From the NCBI GenBank assembly GCA_026396945.1, contig JAPLVX010000089.1:2344-17918 (forward strand): a stretch of 15,575 bases of DNA, read 5' to 3'. The position numbers and the translations under genes were made by a program. The DNA comes from Candidatus Falkowiibacteriota bacterium (GTDB taxonomy: Bacteria; Patescibacteriota; Patescibacteriia; Patescibacteriales; UBA12465). The first letter of the stretch is position 1. Every line of letters starts with the position of its first letter. This document shows, piece after piece, positions 9,646 through 15,575 of the stretch. Below the pieces are notes generated by a model. That model did no database searches. It worked only from the letters and a program-made list of their open reading frames with translations, and was not told where the DNA came from.

Positions 9646-9719
9646 GGGCCCCTAGCTCAGCTGGTTAGAGCACCTGCTTTGCAAGCAGGGGGTCAAGGGT
9701 TCGAATCCCTTGGGGTCCA
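9646..9719 (+). tRNA. tRNA-Ala (anticodon TGC)
   Basis: All four arms fold. The acceptor stem GGGCCCC/GGGGTCC contains G3:U70, the alanine identity pair. The D arm is GCTCAGCTGGTTAGAGC. The anticodon arm is CCTGC-TTTGCAA-GCAGG, with anticodon TGC at 9680-9682. The T arm is AAGGG-TTCGAAT-CCCTT. The discriminator is A9719. CCA is not encoded (CCTT follows), so the 3' end must be completed by CCA-adding enzyme. No terminator follows: a minus-strand ORF ends only two bases away. Confidence 0.97.
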
Positions 9720-9721
9720 CC

Positions 9722-10009
9722 TTAGGAGACAAAGACGCCAAAACGGAGTGAGATAATTTTTTGTTGGATTTCGTCAAAAGAATTGCCGTATTCCTTTTTG
9801 CTAACAGTTATTATTCTGGCATGTACCTCATTATCATTTTCTCCTAATGGTTCTGAATCGCTTAATCCAAAGCCAATAGCAAAATAATTTTCATGATCTA
9901 TTCCAATTATTTTTGCGAGATTAAAAAGTTCTGAACCAGCATGAGTGTCGATTTGGATTTCGCCGGAGTAATCTCCGTACTGTGTTCCATGAAGCTCTTT
10001 TAATTCCAT
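9722..10009 (-). CDS. Hypothetical protein, 95 residues
   Basis: The frame begins MELKELHGTQYGDYSGEIQ and ends SLRFGVFVS. Composition looks like a real soluble, acidic alpha/beta protein (regular mix of strands such as YFAIGFGLSD and ARIITVSKKEY, then a helix DEIQQKII). I recognise no family. It has no signal peptide or membrane segment. It converges on tRNA-Ala with two bases between them, an unusual arrangement that leaves no room for a separate tRNA terminator and suggests that DNA was joined here. No clear ribosome-binding site precedes the ATG at 10009. It could be the last gene of a loose minus-strand cluster with the XRE regulator. Confidence 0.6.
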   Translation of the reverse strand: MELKELHGTQYGDYSGEIQIDTHAGSELFNLAKIIGIDHENYFAIGFGLSDSEPLGENDNEVHARIITVSKKEYGNSFDEIQQKIISLRFGVFVS

Positions 10010-10304
10010 GACTAATTAAGTTTAAGTGATACGATCGTAAAGTATTGAATATGAATATACTGTCTAAATCCAAGCAAATGTAATAAAAATTTACATGACA
10101 GATATAAATTAAAAATACCCCCGACCAGGTAAAGCGGTGTTTACTTCAGCCCTATAGACAAAAAATCCGCCAAGCCAAGCCCTGCGGGTTCGTTACTCGG
10201 CTTGTCATATTTTTTGCTTTTTATAGGACTTCCGTTCACTACAGCCTCCTTTGCCTTGTGGCTATCTCTTTCTTTTCGCTTCGCTCCATTCAATCAATAG
10301 GCTA
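10010..10304. other. Intergenic stretch without a convincing gene
   Basis: Frames on both strands are broken every few dozen bases. The left half is AT-rich and holds the palindrome ACGATCGT near 10030. The middle holds the nested inverted repeat listed separately. The part from about 10228 to 10295 is pyrimidine-rich on the plus strand; on the minus strand it gives only short frames that end within 20 codons. It may be a decayed or dispersed non-coding element. Confidence 0.5.
10151..10227. repeat. 77-base nested inverted repeat (possible structured RNA or cruciform)
   Basis: Four arms nest in order: CCTATA (10151-10156) with TATAGG (10222-10227); CAAAAAAT (10159-10166) with ATTTTTTG (10209-10216); CAAGCC (10171-10176) with GGCTTG (10199-10204); and CCC (10180-10182) with GGG (10186-10188). 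Unpaired gaps are small. The pairing is far more than expected by chance for one 77-base stretch. It is not a simple terminator, because no T tract follows the outer stem. No transposase or integron core site is visible nearby. Confidence 0.6.
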
Positions 10305-10502
10305 TTATTGTTTCCGCCTTTCCCATCTATCCCAGACTTCTCTATTCGAATCACGAATGGACTGAATTGATCGAAGACTATAACGATCGGGATGTTTTTT
10401 GATTTCCATATCTAAATAAACTTCAGTAATAAGACTCGCATAGTATTCTAGGGCAAGTTCTTCATTCTGATATTCTTTAGACGTAGGATATTTTTCCTTC
10501 AT
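10305..10502 (-). CDS. Hypothetical protein, 65 residues
   Basis: A short, highly charged, mostly helical protein: MKEKYPTSKEYQNEELALEYY, then SLITEVYLDMEIKKH, then SIQSIRDSNREVWDRWERRKQ. Base composition and codon use look coding, but I recognise no family. It lies 70 bases after the XRE regulator gene on the same strand and may share its transcript. A small partner of a regulator, as in toxin-antitoxin or phage immunity pairs, is possible but not shown by any motif. Confidence 0.5.
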   Translation of the reverse strand: MKEKYPTSKEYQNEELALEYYASLITEVYLDMEIKKHPDRYSLRSIQSIRDSNREVWDRWERRKQ

Positions 10503-10572
10503 CTTTTAATTATGCCACAAATAGAAGAAAGGGGTGCCCCTGCTGGAGAATGGGAAGCTAAGAGGTGAGAGA

Positions 10573-10824
10573 TTAGTCTTGAGGTGGAATTGGATTTCTT
10601 GATTTCATGTCTGGATACAATTCCTGAGGTGTGACTTGATAAATATCCGCCAAACGAAAAAGGTTTATGATCCCTGGCAGACGGTGGCCATTTTCCCATT
10701 GCGATAGCCTGTTGTTACTCTTAAAACCCAGGCTAATCATGACATCGAACTGGGATAGTCCGACTTTTTGTCGACATTCTTTTAGACAATTGCCGATTGG
10801 AAGGTTAATATTTTGATTATTCAT
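10573..10824 (-). CDS. XRE/Cro-type helix-turn-helix transcriptional regulator
   Basis: I take the ATG complementary to 10822-10824, giving 83 residues. The frame is open to 10887, but the added 21 residues are hydrophobic and unlike the family. The HTH_3 domain covers about residues 11-68: IGNCLKECRQKVGLSQFDVM (helices 1-2), LGFKSNNRLSQWENGHRLPG (turn and recognition helix, with the hallmark SQWENG), then IINLFRLADIYQVTPQELYP (helices 4-5). It probably binds DNA as a dimer and represses nearby genes, as in phage, plasmid and toxin-antitoxin systems. A TATAAT on the minus strand (complement of 10832-10837) lies only about 8 bases before the ATG, so its mRNA may be leaderless. A tail of about 15 residues follows the domain. 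Confidence 0.88.
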   Translation of the reverse strand: MNNQNINLPIGNCLKECRQKVGLSQFDVMISLGFKSNNRLSQWENGHRLPGIINLFRLADIYQVTPQELYPDMKSRNPIPPQD

Positions 10825-10831
10825 ATTTATA

Positions 10832-10837
10832 ATTATA
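10832..10837 (-). promoter_or_regulatory. -10 box of the XRE gene, implying a leaderless mRNA
   Basis: The minus strand reads ACTATAATTATAAAT before the ATG; TATAAT is the complement of 10832-10837. Initiation 6-7 bases on would fall at or one base before the ATG at 10824. The -35 region is poor (TTATAT at 17 bases). Confidence 0.4.
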
Positions 10838-10860
10838 GTAATTACTTGATACACATATAA

Positions 10861-10905
10861 GGGGGTAAAAATCACCATACTTGGCAACTTTTCACCCCTA
10901 TGGGG
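10861..10905. promoter_or_regulatory. Possible operator repeats upstream of the XRE gene
   Basis: CCCC-TAT-GGGG (10895-10905) is an exact inverted repeat. Its left arm in ACCCC is mirrored by GGGGGT at 10861-10866, upstream of the XRE -10 box. Autoregulating XRE proteins often bind such dyads. The 10895-10905 dyad also overlaps the stop of the small upstream ORF, so the assignment is only tentative. Confidence 0.3.
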
Positions 10906-11065
10906 AGCGGTTTTTGGTAAATATAGCCGCTTCAGAGAGGGGAGGCCCTTCAGTTAATTCTGATTTTTCCTTTTCTTTTAATAACTTAGTGAGATAATTA
11001 CAATCTCTTGCAAACTTATTCCAGAAATGGTAGTTTTTGTTCGAAGGATATTTCTTGAAGTCCAC
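10898..11065 (-). CDS. Possible small protein, 55 residues, GTG start
   Basis: A minus-strand frame from GTG (complement of 11063-11065) to TAG (complement of 10898-10900) gives MDFKKYPSNKNYHFWNKFAR and then a Lys/Glu-rich helix and a SEAAIFTKNRSP tail. Composition is protein-like (aromatic-rich start, amphipathic helix). It lies just upstream of the XRE gene on the same strand, 73 bases away. No ribosome-binding site or known family is visible. An in-frame stop lies three codons before the GTG, so no longer form exists. Confidence 0.35.
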   Translation of the reverse strand: MDFKKYPSNKNYHFWNKFARDCNYLTKLLKEKEKSELTEGPPLSEAAIFTKNRSP

Positions 11066-11080
11066 AAAACATTAATACTC

Positions 11081-11173
11081 GCCAGGGAAAGGATCGTTAC
11101 AGTTAAGATGGTAACGAAAGCAATTGGGCGGTAAACTAATGATCCCGCGGAGGTTCAAACCCTCCCCCTGGCA
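11081..11173 (+). ncRNA. tRNA-like RNA with perfect acceptor stem and T arm but no normal D/anticodon arms
   Basis: GCCAGGG (11081-11087) and CCCTGGC (11166-11172) form a perfect 7-bp acceptor stem with discriminator A11173. The T arm GGAGG-TTCAAAC-CCTCC (11149-11165) is canonical and abuts the acceptor exactly as in tRNA. The remaining 61 bases do not fold as D plus anticodon arms. Instead GGATC (11091-11095) pairs with GATCC (11141-11145), enclosing the hairpin GTTAC/GTAAC (11096-11100 with 11111-11115) with a 10-base loop. AGTT in that loop can pair with AACT (11134-11137), a possible pseudoknot. CCA is not encoded. The layout (acceptor, T arm, central helix, no D stem) resembles the tRNA-like half of tmRNA, but the whole is only 93 bases. 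A strong terminator follows after one base. Confidence 0.6.
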
Positions 11174-11174
11174 C

Positions 11175-11204
11175 AAAGCGATAGTTAACGGCTATCGCTT
11201 TTTT
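11175..11204 (+). terminator. Rho-independent terminator of the tRNA-like RNA
   Basis: AAAGCGATAG (11175-11184) and CTATCGCTTT (11192-11201) form a perfect stem around TTAACGG and run into a T tract (six T in a row, 11199-11204). There is no ORF upstream on this strand, so the unit ended here is the tRNA-like RNA. Confidence 0.9.
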
Positions 11205-11250
11205 AAATCGGAAATCATAAATTCATAAGTCTATCTGAATTTATTTAGTA

Positions 11251-11279
11251 TTGACAATATTATAATAAAATGCTATATT
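11251..11279 (+). promoter_or_regulatory. Strong promoter of the 163-residue secreted protein
   Basis: TTGACA (11251-11256) is a perfect -35. TATATT (11274-11279) follows after exactly 17 bases and is preceded by an extended TGC. The start would be near 11286, with a leader of about 68 bases. Confidence 0.8.
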
Positions 11280-11353
11280 ACCCAGTTAGAAAGTTCGTTA
11301 ATAAATGTATAGATAAGTAACCTAAGTTAAACCCTTTAAAACCCAAAGTGCCC

Positions 11354-11845
11354 ATGAAGAGAATGATCCTGATGACCGCAATGCTTGCCTTTGCAGCTGT
11401 ATTATTTGCCCAAAATCAAACAAGCCCCGGAGCCGCCACCGACCAGATTTTTCTACAATTAATGGCCAAAAAGGCCGAACTTACCAACGCCCTGCTCCAA
11501 AAGACAACGACCCTCATGACCTGTCGTGAAAACCTGATAATCGCCAACGTACCAAATGGTAACCCCTCCCAGATAATCAGCAAAAACATGCTAAGTAATT
11601 CCGAGGCAACCCGTCTCCTCTATGCCACCGATTCGTTGCTGGGCTACTATATTCAATGTAATATAGAAAATATTGACACATACATAATGTGTTTTGACTC
11701 CCGGGTGTTTATCGCCCTGAATAGAAATTTAGATGTTGCTACTAAGGCATCTTTAGCTGAGAATAAACAGAATTTCACCAATATCCGGAACACAACTAAC
11801 ATGGTTTTAGCCAAAATAAAGAGCGAACAATCTAACTTAAGATAG
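11354..11845 (+). CDS. Secreted or periplasmic hypothetical protein, 163 residues
   Basis: The frame is open from a GTG at 11348, but the ATG at 11354 gives a clean signal peptide: MKR, then MILMTAMLAFAAVLFA, with likely cleavage before QNQTSPG at about residue 19-20. The mature part is predominantly helical: DQIFLQLMAKKAELTNALLQ, a segment with NPSQIISKNML, then DSLLGYYIQCNIENIDTYIM, and a last helix of Asn/Lys-rich sequence. Three Cys residues (in MTCRE, IQCNI and MCFD) could form disulphides. I recognise no family. Codon choice (more CTG, ACC, GCC) differs from the AT-rich genes left of the tRNA, which hints at a different origin. It has its own strong promoter and terminator and so forms a single-gene unit. 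Confidence 0.75.
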   Translation: MKRMILMTAMLAFAAVLFAQNQTSPGAATDQIFLQLMAKKAELTNALLQKTTTLMTCRENLIIANVPNGNPSQIISKNMLSNSEATRLLYATDSLLGYYIQCNIENIDTYIMCFDSRVFIALNRNLDVATKASLAENKQNFTNIRNTTNMVLAKIKSEQSNLR

Positions 11846-11874
11846 TAAGAAGCAGCGCTCGCTAAAAGATAAAG

Positions 11875-11904
11875 AAAAGGATGGACAAATCGTTCATCCT
11901 TTTT
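11875..11904 (+). terminator. Rho-independent terminator of the 163-residue secreted protein gene
   Basis: AAAAGGATGGAC (11875-11886) pairs with GTTCATCCTTTT (11892-11903), with one G-T pair, around the loop AAATC, and runs into a T-rich tail. It lies 30 bases after the stop at 11845. Confidence 0.88.
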
Positions 11905-11950
11905 CCTTTTCAAAAAACATTCATTATTAGCCATTTTTTACCTTACACCC

Positions 11951-11979
11951 TTGACATTTTTGAATAAATATAATATAAT
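11951..11979 (+). promoter_or_regulatory. Perfect consensus sigma70-type promoter of the 486-residue protein
   Basis: TTGACA (11951-11956), a 17-base spacer and TATAAT (11974-11979) match the full consensus. The start would be near 11986, leaving about 130 bases of leader before 12116. Confidence 0.88.
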
Positions 11980-11985
11980 AATCTA

Positions 11986-12115
11986 AATTAGCTGTTTAAC
12001 AATTTATTAAGAAAAAGAATAGCCCCGGAAAGGAGCCAATCGTTATTCCCTTAGTAAAGGCTAAAATAATCTGAAACTGAAAATTAATATTAACTGTAAA
12101 AAAACTGTCTGTAAA
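11986..12115 (+). promoter_or_regulatory. Long leader of the 486-residue protein mRNA
   Basis: The predicted 130-base leader holds a purine-rich GGAAAGGAG (about 12027-12035) that is not followed by a start codon, and short hairpins such as CCTT/AAGG near 12050. I see no known riboswitch. The SD-like block lies about 80 bases before the true ATG, which itself has no SD. Confidence 0.3.
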
Positions 12116-13576
12116 ATGGAAAAAGATCAAAAAAATCAAGCCGGCGACACGGAAGAGGTTGCCGAAGAAGTTATCATTATTGAAAATCCGGAAGTTATCG
12201 ACGGAACTATGCTCCAGGGTGAAATCGTTAAAGTCGGTGATGGCTTTATATTTATTGACCATGTAAGGCGCGGCTACCAAACCGTCCCTACTAACGGCGA
12301 TGTATTCTGTCCCGTCCCCAAAGATTCCAACTATAAAGTCGGACAATTGGTTCAGTTCTCCGAACTAAACCAGGACAGAGACCGGGTGGGCAAATTCCGC
12401 ACGGAAAACATTTCGCTGGTCAACACCGACCTGGATGTAAACACTCCAGAGGGACGCATTGGCATGATTGCCAAATTATCAGAGACTAAATCCCCTTATC
12501 ACCAACTAAAAAAAATCATTGCCGAGGGTGATATTGAAAAAGCCAAGGAGAATAAGCCGTTGGTCGAATTCGTCCAACAGGTTGCCTGGCTTTTAAACCA
12601 GGAAGGGGGCTATCAGCCGGAACACATCAGTCGAATGGCCGAAGAATTCGTGGCCAAAACCTTTGCCATGTTGGGACCATTGGGAGTGAAATGCTCGATC
12701 CAAGGCGACGTTGACCTGGAGGCCGAAGAAGAAATGATTAAGGAAACAGCCAAGCTGTATGAAGAAAGCGGTTTAAGCGGCCAGGCTGAATCCCTTAAAA
12801 AAGAATATGCCCAATTTCTGGCTGTAAGAAACGCTTTCACTTTGATGAGCCAGAACAATCTGCTCAATTATTGGTCGGTTATAGACCAAAAACATTTGCC
12901 GGAATTGACCTATGCTTTCCCGGTTTGTTATATCTACCGGAAAGCCGGGCTGGACGGTCTGGAACGCCAAGAAAGAGAAGACGACCCACGACCAGACGAA
13001 ACCATCAAGTTTTTCTCAGACTGCGTTGGCAGCCAGGAATACGCCTGGTTTTTCCAGATTTACAACCGCCGCACCCGGCCCTTAGCTCGCTTCAACGGGA
13101 AAGATATTATGCCGCCGGCGTTAGTGAAGATCATGAACAAGGCCAAAGAAAACTTTGACTATATTGCCATCATGACCCCCTATCATGATCAAGCTAGCCG
13201 TGAATGGTCCGATCCGAATTGGCTTCGGAATATTGACCCGATAATGGTGGGCTTTCTCAAAGACCTGCCGTATATGTTTGTGCTCGGCCGTTGGTCAGGG
13301 ACTGGAATTTTTCCTTTGTTACTCGACTGCATCGCCGACACCACCAATCATCTGAGAATTAACAAACATCTGCTCGGAAATTTTATTCATAACTCCTGGT
13401 GGTATAAGGGAAAAAAATCCAGTAACAACGATGAGGTAAAAGATATACTTTCAAATTCCGAGATGGAAAAGGTGTTGATTGAATATACCGATCGCTTACT
13501 CAAGGCCTATGACAACGGTCTTCTGTTCCAGTTTCTCAGGGGAGAACTGAAAGAGGACCCTGACTATAAATTCTAA
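12116..13576 (+). CDS. Unrecognised 486-residue protein with OB-like N-terminus
   Basis: The start is the ATG at 12116. An acidic lead (1-28) is followed by a small beta-rich domain at about 32-103 (MLQGEIVKVGDGFIFIDHV and later VPTNGDVFCPVP, YKVGQLVQFSEL). This looks like an OB/cold-shock or S1-type nucleic-acid-binding barrel. A helical middle part runs from about 120 to 262. The C-terminal part (265-430) reads like one alpha/beta domain, with the striking segments EYAWFFQIYNRRTRPLARF, FDYIAIMTPYHDQASREW (347-364), RNIDPIMVGF and VLGRWSGTGIFPLL. H357 and D358 sit in the second and could be functional. I know no family with this combination and assign no function. No signal peptide or membrane helix is present, so it should be cytoplasmic. 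It has a perfect consensus promoter and a strong terminator, suggesting high expression. Codon use is less AT-rich than in the operon at the left of the window. Confidence 0.85.
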   Translation: MEKDQKNQAGDTEEVAEEVIIIENPEVIDGTMLQGEIVKVGDGFIFIDHVRRGYQTVPTNGDVFCPVPKDSNYKVGQLVQFSELNQDRDRVGKFRTENISLVNTDLDVNTPEGRIGMIAKLSETKSPYHQLKKIIAEGDIEKAKENKPLVEFVQQVAWLLNQEGGYQPEHISRMAEEFVAKTFAMLGPLGVKCSIQGDVDLEAEEEMIKETAKLYEESGLSGQAESLKKEYAQFLAVRNAFTLMSQNNLLNYWSVIDQKHLPELTYAFPVCYIYRKAGLDGLERQEREDDPRPDETIKFFSDCVGSQEYAWFFQIYNRRTRPLARFNGKDIMPPALVKIMNKAKENFDYIAIMTPYHDQASREWSDPNWLRNIDPIMVGFLKDLPYMFVLGRWSGTGIFPLLLDCIADTTNHLRINKHLLGNFIHNSWWYKGKKSSNNDEVKDILSNSEMEKVLIEYTDRLLKAYDNGLLFQFLRGELKEDPDYKF

Positions 13577-13608
13577 AGAAACAAAAACTAAGCAAAACTC
13601 GAGATCTC

Positions 13609-13642
13609 GCTCGCCCTAAAATTAAAGGGGCGAGCTTTTTTT
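13609..13642 (+). terminator. Rho-independent terminator of the 486-residue protein gene
   Basis: GCTCGCCC (13609-13616) and GGGCGAGC (13628-13635) form a perfect 8-bp GC-rich stem with an 11-base loop, followed by seven T (13636-13642). It separates the accessory gene from polA. Confidence 0.93.
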
Positions 13643-13652
13643 ATTATTAAAT

Positions 13653-13681
13653 TTATCACTCAAACTAAGCTTTATTATAAC
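13653..13681 (+). promoter_or_regulatory. Probable polA promoter
   Basis: TTATCA (13653-13658) and TATAAC (13676-13681) are 17 bases apart. The start would be near 13688, with a leader of about 62 bases that has no strong SD before the ATG at 13750. Confidence 0.5.
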
Positions 13682-13749
13682 AAAAAATATCTCTGGCTAG
13701 CCTTAGAATCGTCTTTGCTAGCTGAGCTCAAAAATGATAAACTAAACCT

Positions 13750-15575
13750 ATGGCTACTAAAACTAAAAAACTCATAATTATTGATGGTAACGCCCTAATT
13801 CATCGCAGTTTTCACGCCTTACCCCCGACTTTAAAGACTAAAGACGGTCTTTTGGTTAACGCCGTTTATGGTTTTACTTCCTTTTTATTAAAGGCCCTTT
13901 TGGAATTTAAACCGGAATACGTAGTCCTGACCCTAGATAAAAAGGGCCCAACCTTTCGCCACGTCGCTTACGCTGATTATAAAGCGACCCGGGTCAAAGC
14001 GCCGGATGAACTTTACGAACAAATTCCTTTAGTTAAAGAAGTGGCCACGGCTTTAAGTATTCCAATTTTTGAAATGAGCGGCTATGAAGCCGATGATTTA
14101 ATTGGCACGATTTGCGCCCAGATTAAGACGGAAAAAAATCTGGACAAAATAATTATTACTGGCGACATGGATACGCTCCAATTAGTTAACGAAAGTACTC
14201 GCGTCTATACAATGAGCCGAGGACTTAGTGATACAATTATTTATAATGAGACCAAAGTCAAAGAACGCTACAATCTTCGACCCGATCAAATTATTGACTA
14301 TAAAGCCTTGCGCGGTGACCCGAGTGATAATATTCCGGGGGTTCGTGGGATTGGTGAAAAAACGGCCAGTGAATTATTAAATACTTTTAAAAATTTAGAC
14401 GGACTTTATCAAGCAGTTAAAAATGATAATTCTAAAATCAGCCCGCGAATTTTAGACTTATTAAAAACTCATAAAGCCGACGCTTATCTTTCCCGAGAAC
14501 TAGCCACAATTCATTTAGGCGCGCCGATAAAATTCAAACTCCAAGATATTAGTTTTTCTAATTTTGATTTAGACAAAGTTATTACTCTTTTCAGTCAACT
14601 CGAATTTCGCTCCCTCTTAAATAAAGCTAAAGATTTACGCGATCAAATTAAAATTAGCGCTTCCTCAAGAGCGGACGGACCGCTTAGCGAGTCGGGTGGC
14701 AAATCGCCCGATAGACCGGCCGGTAGAACGGGTAAGAAATCGAAGGGTGATATGGTCGAGCCCGGCAAACAAAATAAACAAACAGCGACGGAGATCAAAA
14801 ACGATTTAAGCGCCCAGAAATTTGCCCGTAACGCTAAAGATTTTAAATATCACAAAATTGATAACAAAAAAGATTTTCAAAATTTTCTTAAAAAATTAAA
14901 AACCGTCGCCGCCTTTACTTTCGATGTGGAAACAACTTCGCTTGATCCTTTGACTACCGAACTCTTGGGCTTAAGCTTTTCTTGGACTAAGGGTGAAGCG
15001 TATTTTGTTGTTACTAAGCCGGACCAAATAAATTCGGCTGAGTCTAAATCAATCGCGGCTTTAAAAAACAGCCGCCCGGATCTATTTAATTACCAAACTA
15101 AACCTGACTCGCCCAAAATGAAAAATATTCCCGAAAAAAATATTCACCCCTGGCTTAAAGACTTGGCGCCAATCTTCGCTGACCCGAAAATAAAGAAGCA
15201 CGGCCATAATCTTAAATTTGACACCCGCGTTTTAACGGCTCAAGGTTTGATTGTCGGAGGTTTAGGCTTTGATACTATGATTGCGGCTTATTTATTAAAC
15301 CCAGATAACCGCCAACATAATTTAGACGCTCTAACTTTTTCCGAATTAGGTTTTGAGAAAATCAGTAAAGGCAATCTTTTGGGTGAAGGGAAAAACGAAA
15401 TCTCTTGGGCGGAAATAGATTTAGATAAATTAAGTTCCTATTCCGGCGAAGACGCTGATTTCACTGAACAACTAGTGAAAATTCTTGAGCCGAAATTAAA
15501 AGCGCAAAAACTGACTGACCTATTTAATAAAATTGAAATGCCTTTGGTTGAAGTTCTGGCAGACATGGAAAATAA
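13750..15575 (+). CDS. polA: DNA polymerase I (5' part; runs off the window)
   Basis: From the ATG at 13750 the frame stays open for 608 codons to the window edge. The 5'-nuclease domain (about 1-297) shows LIIIDGNALIHRSFHALPP with D12, EADDLIGTI (D115, D116), GDMDTLQLV (D139, D141) and GDPSDNIPGVRGIGEKTA (D190, D193 and the helix-hairpin-helix). A hydrophilic Gly/Ser/Lys-rich linker covers about 302-357. The 3'-5' exonuclease domain starts near 366 and keeps all catalytic motifs: FDVETT (D392, E394), HNLKFDTR (D491) and YSGED (Y564, D568). Proofreading should therefore be active, unlike in PolA of Thermus or Bacillus. The polymerase domain begins at the edge (PLVEVLADMEN). PolA fills gaps and removes RNA primers in replication and repair. 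It is insulated from the preceding gene by a terminator. Confidence 0.97.
   Translation, partial: MATKTKKLIIIDGNALIHRSFHALPPTLKTKDGLLVNAVYGFTSFLLKALLEFKPEYVVLTLDKKGPTFRHVAYADYKATRVKAPDELYEQIPLVKEVATALSIPIFEMSGYEADDLIGTICAQIKTEKNLDKIIITGDMDTLQLVNESTRVYTMSRGLSDTIIYNETKVKERYNLRPDQIIDYKALRGDPSDNIPGVRGIGEKTASELLNTFKNLDGLYQAVKNDNSKISPRILDLLKTHKADAYLSRELATIHLGAPIKFKLQDISFSNFDLDKVITLFSQLEFRSLLNKAKDLRDQIKISASSRADGPLSESGGKSPDRPAGRTGKKSKGDMVEPGKQNKQTATEIKNDLSAQKFARNAKDFKYHKIDNKKDFQNFLKKLKTVAAFTFDVETTSLDPLTTELLGLSFSWTKGEAYFVVTKPDQINSAESKSIAALKNSRPDLFNYQTKPDSPKMKNIPEKNIHPWLKDLAPIFADPKIKKHGHNLKFDTRVLTAQGLIVGGLGFDTMIAAYLLNPDNRQHNLDALTFSELGFEKISKGNLLGEGKNEISWAEIDLDKLSSYSGEDADFTEQLVKILEPKLKAQKLTDLFNKIEMPLVEVLADMEN

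Follow-up and report, generated by a model that had tools for sequence, protein, structure and literature searches.

By its sequence, a 93-base RNA encoded at positions 11081–11173 has the amino-acid end of a tRNA and no visible code-reading part. Positions are those of the window, the whole stretch of 15,575 nucleotides that was analysed, from the genome of a Candidatus Falkowiibacteriota bacterium (G000). A homologue is encoded in a second genome of the same family (G032), and the RNA is probably a working one that has been kept in both bacteria. With modest confidence, we read it as a stand-alone small RNA derived from a leucine-like tRNA, non-decoding, that sits in a variable locus.

A tRNA-like end with its own terminator

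The window RNA and its terminator have the following features.

11081–11087, plus strand: 5′ strand of the acceptor stem, GCCAGGG, Watson-Crick paired (7/7) with 11166–11172
11095–11116, plus strand: inner hairpin 1, CGTTAC, 10 nt, GTAACG, from the centroid fold; stands in place of the D and anticodon arms
11128–11148, plus strand: inner hairpin 2, GCGG, TAAACTAATGATC, CCGC, directly before the T arm; resembles a class II variable arm
11149–11165, plus strand: T arm, GGAGG-TTCAAAC-CCTCC, 5 bp with a 7-nt loop, abutting the 3′ acceptor strand
11166–11172, plus strand: 3′ strand of the acceptor stem, CCCTGGC, from the sequence and the homologue comparison
11173, plus strand: discriminator A73; CCA is not encoded here (CAA follows) and is encoded in G032
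11175–11204, plus strand: intrinsic terminator, a hairpin (−13.8 kcal/mol) and T run, beginning 1 base past A73

The initial annotation had described a perfect 7-bp acceptor stem, a discriminator A and a contiguous T arm, with a terminator one base behind, and reading the sequence bears out all of these. As in a decoding tRNA, a contiguous 7-bp acceptor and a 5-bp T arm are present, the latter with a TTCRANY-type loop. We searched with a descriptor of a perfect acceptor and T arm, in which the acceptor 5′ strand lies 30–199 bases ahead of the T arm; it matched once in the window and in none of 200 dinucleotide shuffles of the window, both strands included. Folding z-scores are −3.10 for the window RNA and −3.34 for the G032 homologue. 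The terminator hairpin at 11175–11204 is absent from the output of a simple terminator scan, perhaps because the T run lengthens the stem.

ARAGORN called only a tRNA-Ala in the window (9646–9721) and nothing at the RNA site, where Rfam likewise gave no match at E ≤ 1. On a 181-base stretch at E ≤ 10, Rfam returned only a chance microRNA match, which lies on the terminator, and no match to RF00005 (tRNA). By eye, neither a D arm nor a 5-bp/7-nt anticodon arm can be drawn at the proper place in the window RNA or the G032 RNA. The earlier description of a tRNA-like RNA that has its own terminator and is not an ordinary tRNA stands.

No promoter directly upstream of the window RNA scored above the scan threshold. 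Downstream, a strong promoter match (TTGACA-17-TATATT with TG, 11/12) lies at 11251–11279 and would serve the next gene; the stretch 11251–11845 comprises this match and an ORF of 165 aa, which has no Pfam match and whose start looks by eye like a signal peptide.

A homologue with compensatory changes

The homologue was found in the MAG of Parcubacteria group bacterium M6-OD1-4 (G032; LSNS01000006.1). Among 60 genomes, G032 gave the sole core match outside G000, at 82% identity over the 57-nt core, and BLAST aligned nothing beyond the core.

L002:1512–1609, minus strand: G032 RNA; acceptor GCCAAGG/CCTTGGT, A73, encoded CCA, T arm GAAGG-TTCGACT-CCTTC

Immediately ahead of the T arm, the G032 RNA carries the same GCGGTAAACTAATGATYCCGC as the window RNA. 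We set the alignment of the two RNAs by hand and masked the spacers. All seven acceptor pairs are kept, one altered on both sides and one changed to G.U, as are all five pairs of the T arm, one of them altered on both sides. Hairpin 1 reads CATTG/CAATG in G032, at the same distance from the acceptor, with four of its five core pairs altered on both sides; the hairpin drawn in the initial annotation as GTTAC/GTAAC is thus kept in place but not in letters. Hairpin 2 is identical in 20 of 21 bases and has a loop of 13 nt (UAAACUAAUGAUY).

Taken as four helices, 21 of 21 pairs form in both RNAs, six altered on both sides and one on one side. In a slid control, with partners shifted by 1–3 columns, 44–55% of cells were paired. 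The covariation measures were reached by 7 of 500 shuffles, which is as little as two sequences can yield. Four of the six double changes fall in hairpin 1 and so depend on the hand-chosen alignment; the other two are in the acceptor and T arms, where the alignment is not in doubt. The check for covariation that had been proposed therefore finds compensatory changes in the acceptor, T arm and hairpin 1, from one homologue only, but the GGATC/GATCC helix that had been proposed with them is not the conserved one.

The G032 copy has a clear promoter, TTGACA-17-TATAAT (12/12) with TG before the second box, which ends 18 bases ahead of the RNA; promoter-like sites are frequent in shuffles of the G032 stretch (mean 2.4), and the G032 site is a full match. 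Right behind the RNA is a 12-pair terminator, different from that of the window and in the same place.

Perfect pairing had been taken to argue against decay, and given the intact pairs in two genomes and their compensatory changes, simple decay is probably not the explanation. In its fuller form, this alternative holds that a tRNA-Leu or tRNA-Ser gene decayed at a tRNA-linked integration hotspot, its acceptor and T arm being chance survivors of a gene whose D and anticodon arms are eroding. Such a relic would suit the decoding arms that are not found, the patchy presence (2 of 39 family genomes), the variable locus beside tRNA-Ala and the lack of a promoter match ahead of the window copy. It would hardly suit intact pairing in two genera with six compensatory changes, a near-unchanged 21-nt inner hairpin or the G032 promoter and terminator, and two independent relics would hardly have these features in common. 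We consider decay quite unlikely. On thin evidence, from two genomes, the tRNA-like structure appears to be kept by selection.

Two competing inner folds

The initial annotation had placed a GGATC/GATCC helix around the GTTAC/GTAAC hairpin. That helix can be written, but it is mutually exclusive with the GCGG/CCGC helix of hairpin 2, and the two folds are near-equal in the window RNA (−33.9 and −33.7 kcal/mol, with pair probabilities of about 0.44 and 0.52). In G032, a run of A stands where GGATC would be and GGATC is absent, whereas the GCGG/CCGC hairpin is identical in sequence, with a pair probability of about 0.65. Since G032 keeps GCGG/CCGC without GGATC, we regard the conserved structure as made up of the acceptor, the two inner hairpins and the T arm. 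The GGATC/GATCC helix may be an alternative state of the RNA; a helix GGUGAUC/GAUUCC, shifted and with a bulge, can be traced by eye in G032.

An H-type pseudoknot (CGTTAC/GTAACG with CAGTT/AATTG) can be drawn in the window RNA; in G032 both of its helices would compete for one strand. We rejected a group I intron in tRNA-Leu(UAA), as the inner part is merely 61 nt.

Distribution

We searched for further homologues by BLAST, by pattern and with a model, R1, built from both RNAs. The RNA was found in 2 of 39 genomes of the family, 2 of 111 of the order (by core pattern with two mismatches at most), 2 of 380 of the class (R1) and 1 of 379 in a sample of the phylum (G000).

With the window RNA as BLAST query, 44 of 60 genomes had a match at E ≤ 1, and the core was matched only in G000 and G032. 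Elsewhere the matches cover short segments, chiefly from around the T arm or the terminator; of these, L003, L005, L006 and L010 were inspected. The G032 RNA, searched against 36 genomes, matched G000 at 2.2e-10 and nine others over 17–35 nt (E ≥ 0.0028). Under strict filters, R1 had a match at E ≤ 0.1 in 107 of the 380 class genomes, and only G000 and G032 exceeded 37.2 bits. In the phylum sample, G000 alone passed E ≤ 1e-6, G032 evidently being outside the sample. Within the 39 family genomes, R1 gave four matches at E ≤ 1: the two RNAs, a tRNA-Leu in G012 and a 22-bit match in G016.

A pattern scan of genome contigs gave eight stretches, one of them the G032 RNA and the other seven not forming its structure by eye. 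Four scans of viral contigs with pieces of the core gave 2, 1, 1 and 6 stretches; the first three had no structure of this kind by eye, and the last seven had no R1 score at E ≤ 1. The window RNA had no match among phages, where the G032 RNA gave 105 weak records, the five best (E 0.5) annotated as tRNA-Leu. In plasmids, the window RNA had two chance-level matches.

Probable kinship to tRNA-Leu

All 28 R1-matched loci given to ARAGORN were named as ordinary tRNAs: 21 Leu, 5 Met, 1 Thr and 1 Ser. The R1 alignments displayed place the variable arm of tRNA-Leu onto hairpin 2. By ARAGORN names, the long-armed tRNAs of each genome include three Ser and one Tyr; the remainder are Leu, six in G032 and three in G000. 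Among the nine long-armed tRNA-Leu of both genomes, all have A73 and four begin with GCC, as the RNA does; all six tRNA-Ser begin with GGAGAG and have G73, and the RNA has neither. The RNA resembles a class II tRNA-Leu in its variable arm, T arm, acceptor and A73, and it differs in having no detectable D and anticodon arms and in the 13-nt loop of its variable arm.

We saw no tRNA-Ser(TGA) in G032 among 45 tRNA matches judged by length, ten of them long-armed and named; this genome is 96% complete, and the gene may lie in a gap.

The RNA could instead be a working decoding tRNA of Leu, Ser or Sec type whose odd fold the programs miss. Its length is near that of a class II tRNA, it has A73, the G032 RNA weakly matches the tRNA-Sec model (13.6 bits, E 3.6), and tRNA-Ser(TGA) was not seen in G032. 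Set against these, by eye neither RNA has a 5-bp/7-nt anticodon arm at the proper place, and the RNA neither starts with GGAGAG nor has G73, as the six tRNA-Ser do. Moreover, G032 has six tRNA-Leu genes and thus no gap among its Leu tRNAs, and G000 has tRNA-Ser(TGA) alongside the RNA, which therefore is not simply its stand-in. The RNA might conceivably substitute for tRNA-Ser(TGA) in G032; a decoding function as a whole is very unlikely.

Comparison with tmRNA

The initial annotation had also raised a minimal tmRNA. The RNA shares with tmRNA (RF00023) the acceptor and T arm and helices that replace the anticodon arm, and it differs in its length (93 nt, against 384 nt for the tmRNA of G032), in lacking the G3.U70 alanine mark, in showing by eye no tag frame beyond a few codons common to both RNAs, and in coexisting with a true tmRNA in G032. 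The 3:70 pair is C3-G70 in both RNAs, which argues against alanine charging. RF00023 matched neither RNA at E ≤ 10. A tmRNA above the cut-off was found in 53 of 60 genomes, including G032 and not G000. In G032 it adjoins SmpB.

C6:35326–35709: G032 tmRNA, 384 nt
C6:35721–36155: G032 SmpB

We found neither a tmRNA over the cut-off nor SmpB in G000, which is 81% complete; since the two are neighbours in G032, both may be absent because one region is missing. By eye, the codons GCG GUA AAC UAA UGA, with two stops, are common to both RNAs in the hairpin-2 loop, and the codons before them differ.

A minimal tmRNA would use this loop as the end of a tag frame and rescue ribosomes. The shared UAA UGA frame, the tmRNA-like acceptor and T arm, and the lack in G000 of an over-cut-off tmRNA or a detected SmpB point that way. 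Against it, G3.U70 is missing, G032 has a normal tmRNA beside SmpB, the joint absence in the incomplete G000 genome is what one missing region would cause, and the codons ahead of GCG are not tag-like. We saw no frame conserved beyond a few codons; the proposal is not supported and is highly improbable. A circularly permuted tmRNA was likewise rejected, as the 5′ and 3′ acceptor strands stand in normal order.

A separate family of alanine-type tRNA-like RNAs

Two further RNAs of G000 gave weak tRNA matches (30.9 and 23.3 bits; tRNA cut-off 29) and lay below the tmRNA cut-off; ARAGORN calls neither. They led to a second model, R2. In at least 178 of 192 genomes it had matches at E ≤ 1e-4, and among the matches listed most were ordinary-looking, 72 nt long and at 40–46 bits. 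From 52 matches in 44 loci, we dropped six duplicates, three ordinary tRNAs and one antisense match and kept 42 copies from 22 genomes. The family is represented in loci L163, L164, L167–L186 and L196–L215 and at the following places in G000.

C76:6044–6112, minus strand: alanine-type copy
C56:2706–2774, minus strand: alanine-type copy
C27:21850–21917, minus strand: alanine-type copy
C33:6612–6679, plus strand: alanine-type copy
C37:4301–4368, minus strand: alanine-type copy
C57:4408–4473, minus strand: alanine-type copy

The copies are 66–70 nt long and have a mini D arm. All 42 carry G3.U70, the alanine mark, and A73, and 39 have a UYRRCA loop; ARAGORN calls just one, as tRNA-Cys. In an alignment of all 52 matches (46 distinct rows, tRNAs included) fitted to R2, 19 of 21 pairs are altered on both sides, a level reached by none of 500 shuffles. 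In 34 of the 42 copies, the 120 bases downstream include a stretch able to pair with the anticodon-like arm of the copy itself (score ≥ 10); when copies were mismatched, this was so in 41 of 1722 cases. Three further copies have such a stretch upstream (scores 13–16), making 37 of 42, and five have it on neither side at this threshold. Visual inspection of 35 downstream stretches shows the complementary stretch preceded by a TATAAT-like box and followed by a terminator-like hairpin. From these sequence features, the RNAs and their neighbour stretches may be matched pairs, for instance of toxin and antitoxin RNAs.

A search near this subject in the open-licence PMC literature listed nothing naming the family. 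The window RNA lies outside it, as it is not among the R2 matches in G000 and has no such partner nearby. The alanine-type family is a separate lead, and a stronger one than the window RNA.

A variable locus between tRNA-Ala and polA

The window RNA lies between two genes that border a variable locus.

9646–9721, plus strand: tRNA-Ala(TGC), from ARAGORN and Rfam; left border
13750–15573, plus strand: polA (DNA polymerase I), running off the window; right border

In both genomes the RNA is upstream of polA, which is directly next in G032 and follows two ORFs without a Pfam match in the window. The stretch upstream of polA varies strongly among 30 polA loci and is therefore an insertion-prone place; four of these 30 loci, G000 included, have tRNA-Ala immediately ahead of polA. 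The RNA at this locus probably reflects horizontal gain or repeated loss.

The variable stretch spans 9722–13749 of the window and 9436–14500 of L043, holds accessory genes and is variable across the family. Among them, the window has an XRE-type regulator, and G032 has a MerR-type gene and a STAS-like DUF4325 gene (just under the Pfam cut-off). Relatives of the G032 DUF4325 and MerR-type genes (54% and 46% identical) also stand beside polA in G014, in reverse orientation. On the same contig as the homologue, a type III hammerhead ribozyme match was seen at L043:16381–16435, plus strand (G032:C12), with 40.6 bits (gathering 48.5) and E 1.1e-5.

No window protein between tRNA-Ala and polA matches the 1.5 kb upstream of polA in G032. 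A search for complementary partners found none for the window RNA across the 15.6 kb of the window (best score 10) and none for the G032 RNA in its 19.9-kb locus (best score 11, T runs). These results bear on another reading, in which a mobile element or defence cassette would use the RNA as a decoy or for addiction, for instance to bait tRNA-cutting enzymes or as one member of an RNA toxin-antitoxin pair. The accessory genes of the variable locus would suit such a role, as would the other tRNA-like RNAs with complementary neighbour stretches in the same two genomes, but the failure to find a partner or a shared protein counts against it, and we regard it as unlikely.

Proposed origin and function

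Our preferred reading remains a non-decoding RNA derived from a leucine-like tRNA. In the 3′ half, the acceptor, T arm, long variable arm and A73 would be those of a class II tRNA, closest to tRNA-Leu, with the D and anticodon arms swapped for one hairpin and linkers at a similar total length. The RNA would have a promoter of its own, which is clear only in G032, and end at its own terminator. The acceptor, T arm, A73, CCA encoded in one copy and immediate terminator all fit a passage through tRNA maturation, and we propose that the RNA is stable because it is trimmed and given CCA as a tRNA is. E. coli LeuRS does not need the anticodon, so charging of the RNA is possible, and LeuRS would be the most likely enzyme given A73. 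The RNA would then act outside translation, presenting its 13-nt loop UAAACUAAUGAUY to an RNA or protein partner; we take this loop, in the most conserved part of the RNA, as the putative effector. Against this reading stand the small number of sequences (two, with no tree), a distribution that a drifting mobile relic would explain as well (2 of 39 family genomes, and no further copy in the wider samples), the two near-equal inner folds and the lack of a promoter over threshold before the window copy.

The nearest published parallel, akin in kind, appears to be tRNAOther of Bacillus cereus, a tRNA-like RNA beside an island that is reported to be non-functional in translation and thought to have been recruited to regulation; inactivation of the island tRNA is thought to have yielded a regulatory RNA (PMC3399842). 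tRNAOther has a Trp anticodon and is reported within larger transcripts (PMC3399842); in the window RNA no anticodon arm is visible, one arm resembles that of class II tRNAs, and a terminator of its own follows. Allo-tRNAs and irregular tRNAs share with the window RNA a long variable arm and a non-standard cloverleaf (PMC7609411). Allo-tRNAs carry an anticodon, and the lengths of their acceptor and T arms are 8/4 or 9/3 (PMC7609411); the window RNA has 7/5 and no anticodon was seen, which places it outside them. The open-licence PMC literature gave no paper on tRNA-like RNAs together with Patescibacteria, nor one on tRNA-like RNAs together with the Candidate Phyla Radiation and noncoding RNA.

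A kept tRNA-like RNA with no anticodon would be a clean case in which to ask what parts of a tRNA are enough for its maturation and charging, and what roles such RNAs have outside translation. As ARAGORN and Rfam miss such genes, non-decoding tRNA relatives in very small genomes may be undercounted. A bolder reading, which we consider rather unlikely, is a new class: a class II tRNA that is aminoacylated although it lacks an anticodon, receives its amino acid from LeuRS or another anticodon-ignoring synthetase and serves as a regulator or amino-acid donor through its 13-nt loop. If that were true, then together with the alanine-type RNAs of the same genomes it would mean that RNAs shaped like tRNAs have widespread uses beyond decoding in these reduced bacteria.
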